Shown: in pieces, positions 55,450-58,121 of the stretch | How positions within the stretch are numbered: the first letter of the stretch is position 1 | Layout: every line of letters starts with the position of its first letter | From: Lacinutrix sp. C3R15 | GTDB taxonomy: Bacteria > Bacteroidota > Bacteroidia > Flavobacteriales > Flavobacteriaceae | Direction of reading: 5' to 3' | NCBI RefSeq assembly: GCF_018860825.1 | Contig: NZ_JAHKPZ010000012.1 | Location: 372,001 to 436,000, forward strand | DNA length: 64,000 nucleotides | The notes under the pieces: generated by a model | Database searches by the model: none | What the model was told of the DNA's origin: nothing | The model's input: the letters and a program-made list of their open reading frames with translations, nothing else | Made by a program: the position numbers and the translations under genes

Positions 55450-56013
55450 ATGAAACTTAAATTTAAAACAGCAGATTCCTCACGTATAAGCATTTCACTA
55501 CTTATGCAACCATCACATTCTAATTTTGGAGGTAAAATTCATGGTGGATATATTTTAAGTTTAATGGATGAAATTGCATTTGCTTGTGGCTCTAAACATT
55601 CTGAAACCTATTGTGTTACTGCCTCTGTAAATACGGTAGATTTTTTAAACCCTATTGAAATTGGAGATTTAGTAACCATGAAAGCCTCTGTAAATTATGT
55701 TGGTAGAACCTCTATGGTTGTTGGTATTCGTGTGGAAGCCGAAAACATTAGAACAGGAGAAACCAAACATTGTAACTCTTCTTATTTTACAATGGTAGCT
55801 AAAGACGATGACGGAAAATCTGTAACCGTTCCTGGTTTAATACTTAATGATAAAAAGGAAGTTGTTCGTTTTTTAAAAGCAATAAATCGTAACGAAAATC
55901 ATAGAGCCAGACAAGAAGAATTTAATCATGTAGACTTTTCTTTAGAAAACTATTTAGGCAATTTAAAAGACCATCGTGTAAAAATTGATTTACCAGATAG
56001 TTTTGATAATTAA
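55450..56013 (+). CDS. Acyl-CoA thioesterase, hotdog fold
   Basis: A 187-residue single-hotdog protein that hydrolyses acyl-CoA esters. Signature: SNFGGKIHGGYILSLMDEIAFACG with the HGG and Asp/Glu site, TASVNTVDFLNPIEIGDLV and GRTSMVVGIRVEAEN. The C-terminal ~60 residues are a charged extension. Related to YciA-type enzymes. Follows the 122-residue membrane protein by 1 base. Confidence 0.92.
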   Translation: MKLKFKTADSSRISISLLMQPSHSNFGGKIHGGYILSLMDEIAFACGSKHSETYCVTASVNTVDFLNPIEIGDLVTMKASVNYVGRTSMVVGIRVEAENIRTGETKHCNSSYFTMVAKDDDGKSVTVPGLILNDKKEVVRFLKAINRNENHRARQEEFNHVDFSLENYLGNLKDHRVKIDLPDSFDN

Positions 56014-56029
56014 TACTACCAGTAATAAT

Positions 56030-56113
56030 ATTCCTTAATAAAGGAATATATTTAATTATTCCATAAATAAGGAATAAATTTGATTATTCCATAAAAAAGG
56101 AATATATTTGATA
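56030..56113 (+). repeat. Three 28-bp tandem repeats with palindromes
   Basis: Units start at 56030, 56058 and 56086. Each opens with ATTCC, has 8 bases, then GGAAT, and ends with a TAnnTTTR-like block (TATATTTA, TAAATTTG, TATATTTG). The array lies immediately upstream of satD. Confidence 0.9.
56079..56110 (+). promoter_or_regulatory. Promoter-operator of the satD-DUF3307 operon
   Basis: TTTG (56079-56082, the end of repeat 2), a 20-base spacer and TATATTTG (56103-56110, repeat 3) form a full promoter. The third palindrome (56086-56103) fills the spacer exactly, so a bound repressor would block RNA polymerase. Predicted start near 56117, leader ~28 bases. Confidence 0.72.
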
Positions 56114-56144
56114 GTCATGTAATAAAGCATTAATTTAAAATCAA

Positions 56145-56771
56145 ATGACTAGTATTATAACAGGAGACATTATTAAATCTCGCGCTCAAACAAATCCTGA
56201 AGTTTGGCTTGACCATTTAAAAAAGGCATTATCCTATTTAGAAAAAGATAATTCTCTTTGGGAAATCTATCGTGGTGATAGTTTTCAGATAGAAATTAAA
56301 GATGCTACCAAAAGTTTTGAAGCTGCTATTTATATAAAAGCAGCCATTAAAATAATAAAAGGACTAGATGTTAGATTAGCCATTGGTATTGGCAAAAAAA
56401 CCTACCAAGGTAAAGACGTAACAGAATCTAATGGAGAGGCATTTATATATTCTGGTGAAACTTTTGAAACCTTAAAAAAGGAAAAACAAAACCTTAAAAT
56501 AAAAACAAAATCTCCAATACTTAACAAAGAGTTAAACCTGTATTTTAAACTAGCGCTAATTAGTATGGATAATTGGACTGTTAACTCGGCAGAAATTGTT
56601 AAATTAACCATAGAAAACCCTAAAGCATTACAAGAAGATTTAGCAAAACAAATTGGTACAAACCAAAATGCTATTAGTAAACGTTTAAAACGTGCTAATT
56701 TGGATGAAATACTAGCATTAAACAACATGTATATACATAAAATAAGCAGCTTACATGATACTACTTATTAA
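56145..56771 (+). CDS. SatD-family protein with C-terminal helix-turn-helix
   Basis: A 208-residue soluble protein. The N-terminal ~140 residues fit the SatD family (SIITGDIIKSR; LWEIYRGDSFQIEI; LDVRLAIGIGKKTYQGKDVTESNGEAFIYSGETFE), named after a Streptococcus mutans acid-tolerance gene and otherwise uncharacterised. The C-terminal part (QEDLAKQIGTNQNAISKRLKRANLDEIL) looks like a DNA-binding helix-turn-helix. That fits autoregulation through the palindromic array at its promoter. Overlaps the next gene by 17 bases. Confidence 0.83.
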   Translation: MTSIITGDIIKSRAQTNPEVWLDHLKKALSYLEKDNSLWEIYRGDSFQIEIKDATKSFEAAIYIKAAIKIIKGLDVRLAIGIGKKTYQGKDVTESNGEAFIYSGETFETLKKEKQNLKIKTKSPILNKELNLYFKLALISMDNWTVNSAEIVKLTIENPKALQEDLAKQIGTNQNAISKRLKRANLDEILALNNMYIHKISSLHDTTY

Positions 56772-57462
56772 ACTTTTACTAGCACACCTAATTGGTGATT
56801 TCTTTTTACAACCACTAAAATGGGTTATAGATAAAGAAACTAAAAAATTAAAATCTACAAAACTATATCTACATGTATTCATTCATGTTATTTTACTTTG
56901 TATCCTACTTTGGGATTTTTCACTTTGGCCAATTATTGTAGTTATTGGTGTTACACACCTTATAATTGACGCTACCAAACTCATTATTCAAAAAAATAAA
57001 ACAAGACGTTTACTTTTCTTTTTAGATCAGGTATTACATATTGCAGTAATTTTTGGTACTTATTATGTATTTACAAATACGCAAATAGATTTTAAATATC
57101 TTTTCACGGAACAAAATATATTGTTAATTACCTGTTTAGCCTTTTTAACACAACCTGTTTCTATAATAATGAAAACTATTTTTATAAAATGGGATATTTC
57201 TAAACTTACCAAAGGCACAGAATCACTAGAAGATGCAGGAAAATATATTGGTATTTTAGAGCGTATTTTAGTCTTTATTTTTATAGTTGCCAACCATTGG
57301 GAAGCTGTAGGTTTTTTAATTACAGCAAAATCTGTTTTTAGATTTGGAGATTTAAAAGAATCTAAACACCGAAAACTTACCGAATACATACTAATTGGTA
57401 CACTAATTAGTTTTGGCATAGCTATAATTATTGGCTTACTCTACCTGCTTTTAACACAATAA
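56755..57462 (+). CDS. DUF3307 membrane protein
   Basis: A 235-residue protein with about six transmembrane helices. The family signature is at the N-terminus (LIKLLLAHLIGDFFLQPLKWVIDK) and around HVFIHVILLCILLWDF and GVTHLIIDATKLII, with conserved His and Asp in membrane segments. Function unknown. Starts inside satD (17-base overlap), so the two are co-translated; SatD and DUF3307 genes commonly pair, from memory. Confidence 0.88.
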   Translation: MILLIKLLLAHLIGDFFLQPLKWVIDKETKKLKSTKLYLHVFIHVILLCILLWDFSLWPIIVVIGVTHLIIDATKLIIQKNKTRRLLFFLDQVLHIAVIFGTYYVFTNTQIDFKYLFTEQNILLITCLAFLTQPVSIIMKTIFIKWDISKLTKGTESLEDAGKYIGILERILVFIFIVANHWEAVGFLITAKSVFRFGDLKESKHRKLTEYILIGTLISFGIAIIIGLLYLLLTQ

Positions 57463-57530: not shown

Positions 57531-58121
57531 ATGAAAAAAAATATACTAATACTCGTTTTTTTTATTTCCAATAGTCTATTTGCACAAACAACGTATGATT
57601 TAAATTGGGAAAGAAATATTACAGGAAATGCAGATTTAACTATTGAGCTTGGAGATACTGTACGATGGACATGGACAGATACAAGTCCGCATACCGTTGA
57701 AAACGTAGTTGGAAGCGCTGTAGAAACTTTTAACAGTGGTATTTTAACAGGGTTAGGAGAAACATTTTCTTATACATTTACAGCTATAGGAACCAATGAT
57801 TATTTTTGTGGTATTCATGGTGCAGCAAGCATGTCTGGAACTATTACAGTAGACCTAACAGCTAGCACACCTGAAGAAGCTTTTAAAACGTTTTCTATAT
57901 TACCAAATCCTGCAAGCGCAAATATAATTATACAGCTACCAAACAACTCTAATGCTGCAGAAATAGAAGTTTATAATATTTTAGGAAAACGAATTTTTAT
58001 TAAATCATTAAACGCTACAAGAAACACAGCAATAAACATTTCTTCTTGGCAAAGTGGTTTTTATATAATTAGAGTCATTTCTGGAGACAACGCACAAACC
58101 AAAAAGTTTATAAAACAATAA
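57531..58121 (+). CDS. Exported cupredoxin (blue copper) protein with T9SS sorting domain
   Basis: A 196-residue protein: signal peptide (VFFISNSLFAQ), a plastocyanin-like domain with all four type 1 copper ligands in place (H54 in SPHTV, C93 and H96 in FCGIHG, M101), and a sorting domain from ~115 (SILPNPASANIIIQLPNNS, WQSGFYIIRVIS). It would be an electron carrier delivered to the cell surface, unusual because cupredoxins are mostly periplasmic. Redox partner unknown. Confidence 0.9.
   Translation: MKKNILILVFFISNSLFAQTTYDLNWERNITGNADLTIELGDTVRWTWTDTSPHTVENVVGSAVETFNSGILTGLGETFSYTFTAIGTNDYFCGIHGAASMSGTITVDLTASTPEEAFKTFSILPNPASANIIIQLPNNSNAAEIEVYNILGKRIFIKSLNATRNTAINISSWQSGFYIIRVISGDNAQTKKFIKQ

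Follow-up and report, generated by a model that had tools for sequence, protein, structure and literature searches.

A conserved 28-bp operator array whose letters covary with the SatD recognition helix marks a probably autoregulated satD-DUF3307 operon

Within a 64,000-nucleotide stretch of the Lacinutrix sp. C3R15 genome (contig NZ_JAHKPZ010000012.1, positions 372,001 to 436,000; hereafter the window), a gene for a SatD-like regulator is followed by a gene for a DUF3307 protein. This module is probably an autoregulated helix-turn-helix (HTH) operon of a new variant, and the operator array before it is real and conserved. We favour the explanation, at a probability of roughly 0.8, that SatD directly controls the two-gene operon through this array, with its N-terminal domain as input and DUF3307 as output. 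Judged from sequence comparisons, SatD very probably binds the array at its own promoter, because the array is conserved and its letters vary in concert with the SatD recognition helix.

A search of the window for ATTCC-N8-GGAAT returned three matches only (56030-56047, 56058-56075, and 56086-56103), spaced by 28 and 28 base pairs (bp), exactly as the earlier, sequence-only reading of this DNA had described. None of 100 dinucleotide shuffles of the window contained three matches (mean 0.03), and three of the five sites in the whole genome (3,614,763 bases) are those of the satD array. The full palindrome is one base longer on each side, TATTCC-N8-GGAATA (20 bp), and matches exactly at operator 1 (56029-56048), operator 2 (56057-56076, 28 bp from operator 1), and operator 3 (56085-56104), none of which is assigned a strand. 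The likeness among the three repeats reaches beyond the palindromes themselves. The array lies between a thioesterase-family gene (55450-56013) and the SatD-like gene (56145-56771).

Operator 3 is built into a promoter. By sequence, a -33 element, TTTG (56079-56082, forward strand), stands 28 bp from a -7 element, TATATTTG (56103-56110, forward strand), which matches the TAnnTTTG box of Bacteroidota sigma-A. The palindrome of operator 3 occupies the 20-base spacer between the two elements and overlaps the start of the -7 box; the coordinates thus agree with the proposal that the third palindrome fills this spacer. Both boxes are present only for the promoter ending at 56110. For a -7-like TAAATTTG at 56075, the letters 28 bp upstream are TTTA rather than TTTG. 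The accessible part of a study of this promoter class places TAnnTTTG at -12 to -5 relative to the start (PMC9723704). By this placing, the transcript would be expected to begin near 56115, which shifts the start slightly from the position near 56117 first proposed.

The sequence-only reading had also staked its case on the array recurring upstream of other satD genes. We gathered 309 satD loci in addition to the window from relatives, the family, the phylum, and a named-genome collection; these represent 277 unique proteins. The array does recur: in 223 of the 277 loci, satD is preceded by a strong 28- or 29-bp repeat. Five shuffled sets gave 0, 0, 0, 1, and 1 such loci, the opening 230 nucleotides of coding sequence gave 0, and a region further upstream gave 1 of 275. 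Self-similarity over the 230 nucleotides preceding satD peaks at a lag of 28 in 199/277 loci, 29 in 21, and 56 in 20. By a rule requiring the outer TAT, 216/277 loci have at least two consistent operators, 146 of them have three, and the 450 operator intervals in these 216 loci measure exactly 28 bp in 377 cases and exactly 29 bp in 59. The array is clearest where SatD scores well: of the 218 loci with a score of at least 250 bits, 185 have two or more consistent operators. TAnnTTTG occurs 219 times in the 216 loci, and 103 of these occurrences begin exactly 8.5 bp from an operator centre, the commonest offset and that of operator 3.

Two side observations concern operator-like sequences elsewhere. 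One genome (G645) encodes divergent SatD paralogues, L284 and L288, each with its own repeats 28 bp apart and with differing half-sites (ATCAAC, and ATCAGC/AACAAC, respectively) that lack the usual outer TAT. A CC-N8-GG-like sequence resembling the operator core lies within satD itself (window 56470-56483); its outer letters do not fit.

Across loci, the operator frame TATxyz-N8-z'y'x'ATA is fixed and its inner triplet xyz is variable. The outer TAT is present in 211/221 consensus half-sites, and the triplet is TCC in 48, AAG in 22, TAG in 21, CGG in 20, CGT in 17, CAC in 16, TAC in 16, CTG in 11, and CAT in 9, with rarer others. Of all SatD columns, residue 179 shares the most mutual information with the triplet, followed by 175 and then 176. 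The C-terminal HTH that had been suspected from the sequence is present in the predicted SatD structure, and all three residues sit in its second helix (174-183). K179 pairs with TCC in 48 of 57 loci (GCC in 3), E179 with CGG, CGT, or CTG in 41/46, Q179 with AAG or TAG in 40/45, and R179 with TAC in 13/17; S, T, N, G, or M at this position pairs with CAC or CAT in 24/31 (table count). Among E179 proteins, residue 176 refines the triplet: S goes mostly with CGG, T mostly with CGT, and N mostly with CTG.

When loci were thinned to below 90, 75, 65, and 55% N-terminal-domain identity (190, 132, 69, and 36 representatives), residue 179 remained first and 176 second at all four levels, and 175 third at the first three. 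Using only loci less than 55% identical in the N-terminus, the helix predicted the full triplet in 124 of 208 loci. The locus with the nearest N-terminus gave 20/208, and 300 random four-column sets outside the helix gave a mean of 13.4 and a maximum of 42. Parsimony on a FastTree tree of the N-terminal domain requires at least 42 changes at residue 179 among the 208 loci and 68 of the triplet.

The regulator itself (56145-56771, forward strand, 208 residues) is predicted to join an N-terminal nucleotidyl-cyclase-like fold (about residues 1-120) to the C-terminal HTH. Pfam SatD (PF16264) is its best family at 27.5 bits, under the curated gathering cut-off of 29, and a genome search with the same model gave 26.7 bits, likewise below it; we call the protein SatD-like and do not file it as a PF16264 member. 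The model matches 41/54 aligned relatives at E up to 0.1 (best 5.5e-10). Tested for a cyclase-type fold, the N-terminal domain was predicted to have one of the nucleotidyl-cyclase/GGDEF type. In class III cyclases and GGDEF domains, the metal-binding acidic residues lie on strand 1 and in the hairpin of strands 2 and 3. SatD has D8 (kept in 274/277) and D45 (276/277) at these positions, with DSSP placing D8 in strand 2-10 and D45 between strands 39-42 and 46-51, and the RGD[SE]F loop is kept. These features of the model suggest that the N-terminal domain is likely a nucleotide sensor. For the SatD sequence profile, 26 PDB sequences are listed at E up to 1, none of them a cyclase. SatD differs from the superfamily of class III nucleotidyl cyclases, GGDEF domains, GTP cyclohydrolase III, and the Cas10 palm by its fusion to an HTH.

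The second gene (56755-57462, forward strand) encodes a predicted membrane protein of 235 residues that matches PF11750 at 97.6 bits (cut-off 23); 43/43 aligned relatives match it at E up to 0.1. Its predicted structure is all-helical (pLDDT 90.9, pTM 0.71), and structure comparison recognised no known fold for this model. Among 274 homologues, H11, D15, H40, H44, H68, D72, D91, and H95 are each conserved in 254-268 of 265-272 lettered sequences, and E169, R170, and K192 are invariant (273/273 each). Four of the first five helices in the model bear such H/D pairs at i,i+4 spacing, suggesting a membrane metal site. A plastocyanin/azurin-like copper domain protein with a type IX secretion C-terminal tail is encoded directly downstream (57531-58121).

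The two genes travel together. Their frames overlap by 17 nucleotides in the window and overlap or abut in 202/274 loci, and DUF3307 is the next gene downstream of satD, within 150 nucleotides, in 272/276. Comparing lists for 397 sampled genomes of the family, we found SatD in 238, DUF3307 in 236, and both in 234. Descent looks largely vertical, because pairwise identities of SatD and DUF3307 correlate at 0.91 (274 loci) and nearest neighbours are mostly of the same genus (57/72 SatD rows and 55/72 DUF3307 rows). SatD is mostly present once per genome, with two matches listed in 4 of the 238 positive genomes. DUF3307 can exist without the SatD regulator: among 14 control genomes, Synechococcus elongatus and Bacteroides ihuae have DUF3307, and the Pfam SatD model finds nothing in either. 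DUF3307 also matches phrog_2470, a phage family of membrane proteins in the moron/host-takeover class (E 6.4e-12); a tblastn search for a phage copy found none.

Among known geometries, the satD array looks closest to the hip array. Escherichia coli HipB, as described in the accessible parts of PMC3920265 and PMC3376134, binds TATCC-N8-GGATA cooperatively at four operators and is a repressor of the two-gene operon that encodes it; in the oligonucleotide sequence given in the latter, we measured an O1-O2 spacing of 28 bp. By these partial sources, SatD would likewise be the autoregulator of a two-gene operon with palindromes of outer TAT, N8 centre, and 28-bp spacing, and its HTH profile matches HipB (E 0.002). 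In contrast to the published hip site, the SatD half-site is one base longer with a lineage-variable inner triplet, and the window operator is TATTCC-N8-GGAATA rather than TATCC-N8-GGATA. SatD further differs in its additional N-terminal cyclase-like domain, in having DUF3307 rather than the HipA kinase as partner, and in its Bacteroidota-type promoter. The proposal that promoter geometry sets the 28-bp period holds in part: 83 operators have both a predecessor and a TAnnTTTG at the usual offset, and 28 or 29 bp upstream 33 of them show TTTG and 7 show TTG, whereas 43 show neither. Since hipBA O1 and O2 also lie 28 bp apart on a different promoter, 28 bp may reflect how neighbouring dimers sit, and not only the promoter.

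These comparisons suggest how the system may work. SatD dimers would bind each 20-bp TAT-xyz-N8-z'y'x'-ATA operator via the HipB-like HTH, with recognition-helix residues 175, 176, and 179 reading the xyz triplet. A symmetric dimer would fit the 11-bp distance between the two triplets of an operator, which is close to one turn of the helix. Because the three operators, 28 bp apart, overlie the -33/-7 promoter, binding, perhaps cooperative, would repress both genes. The idea that SatD represses itself has gained support for self-binding, from letters that covary with the helix, and the repression step is drawn from the placement of the operators over the promoter. The N-terminal domain, given its fold and conservation, may bind and possibly turn over a nucleotide and thereby alter DNA binding, and the output would be DUF3307, a putative metal-dependent membrane enzyme.

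Several results weigh against this explanation. The most distant SatDs (below 100 bits) carry the array in only 4/22 loci, just 190/277 loci attain the 99th percentile of shuffles on palindrome chains alone, and TAnnTTTG lies within 260 nucleotides upstream in only 142 of the 216 array loci. At 36 representatives, residue 175 falls outside the best eight columns. A sign test on well-supported branches had only 3-6 pairs for each residue class and was not significant (median p between 0.125 and 1), with opposite-going pairs near zero. The cyclase fold is matched moderately, with a TM-score of 0.39 over the query and two Foldseek hits at E up to 0.001, and no further SatD target stands out in the genome. 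In six of the 57 K179 loci the triplet is something other than TCC or GCC, and our class rule marks the arrays of 19 loci as mixed. Operators and SatD helix are sometimes mismatched, as TCC operators accompany two T179 SatDs of the window's genus as well as L013 (G179) and L048 (E179).

In the window's genus, K179 and T179 relatives share a promoter-proximal TCC-type repeat and have TATCAC-type repeats in register downstream. The window has only one decayed copy of this downstream block, at about 56112-56132 (no strand; weak arms GTCATG/TTAATG), which emerged from an alignment of five same-genus upstream regions and which we read as a relic of the TATCAC-type operator of those relatives. In-register arrays with two operator types at one promoter occur at L036, L037, L007, L010, L013, and L048. 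Mixed arrays could be intermediates of a specificity switch.

Could the repeats be functionless, arising by chance or by tandem duplication? Slippage can create tandem copies, and the window copies are alike beyond their palindromes; however, period and frame are conserved across the phylum while the letters change, and array conservation together with the helix-based triplet prediction already contradicts this account, to which we give almost no weight. It is also quite improbable that another transcription factor binds the array and that the SatD helix covaries only through shared ancestry. Such a factor would accommodate the TCC repeats beside non-K SatDs in mixed arrays and the non-significant sign test. 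Yet all usable SatD columns share that ancestry and the recognition-helix positions top them all, the pairing of K with TCC is seen again in L031, a distant SatD from another family (helix class SD..KG), and the genome holds no second array of the window operator.

Two other accounts keep SatD on its array and change what follows; both seem unlikely. SatD might activate, with upstream operators recruiting polymerase and the promoter-proximal one fine-tuning. Among three-operator arrays with TAnnTTTG at +8.5, 31 carry the box on the second operator, 29 on the third, and 18 on the first, which frequently leaves operators on both sides of the start. Against activation, operators cover part of the -7 box itself, and a single offset is the commonest (103/219). 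Alternatively, the pair could be a toxin-antitoxin-like module in which SatD, as a HipB-like autoregulator, also neutralises DUF3307, a membrane protein harmful in excess. The order of regulator then effector, the overlapping or abutting frames, the hipBA-like operator geometry and spacing, and the phrog_2470 match are consistent with this idea. In contrast, SatD is mostly single-copy per genome, descent of both proteins is largely vertical, the many near-invariant H, D, E, R, and K of DUF3307 fit an enzyme better than a pore, and the two control genomes have DUF3307 without a Pfam SatD match.

Direct control of the operon by SatD remains our preferred explanation. Two published lines of work invite comparison. 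SatD of Streptococcus mutans belongs to the sat operon, which the accessible part of PMC12077213 gives as satCDE with ffh and ylxM. The window protein, too, has Pfam SatD as its best-matching family, but the match is under cut-off, the partner is DUF3307 rather than ffh, and the link to acid tolerance is not carried over. In the open-licence literature, which leaves most subscription journals outside, we found no main text in which SatD and DUF3307, or their Pfam accessions, both appear; one paper mentions DUF3307 alone, and searches for SatD and the sat operon listed no study of the satD-DUF3307 operon. A MerR-family study of protein-DNA covariation, as far as its accessible part goes, scored mutual information between regulator and operator columns (PMC5045206). 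Ours is the same type of evidence; SatD differs in being uncharacterised and in having operators that are physically linked copies at one promoter.

With this finding, the uncharacterised SatD-like and DUF3307 families become a single module open to testing, whose regulator, operator, and promoter are defined and which occurs in 238/397 genomes sampled from the family. The cyclase fold predicted for its input domain hints at a nucleotide signal. We tentatively propose, holding it somewhat doubtful as a whole, that SatD is a new class of nucleotide-sensing transcription factor in which a cyclase fold (RGDEF-like) is joined to a HipB-type HTH, and that its sole target is its own operon, through which it would control a membrane metalloenzyme. 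Because SatD operators are private and linked, specificity could have drifted repeatedly on one scaffold, with mixed arrays as preserved intermediates. The linked arrays are a ready data set on HTH specificity change, in which residues can be read against bases as regulator and sites move together. If this is true, private linked operators would leave a natural, readable recognition code.
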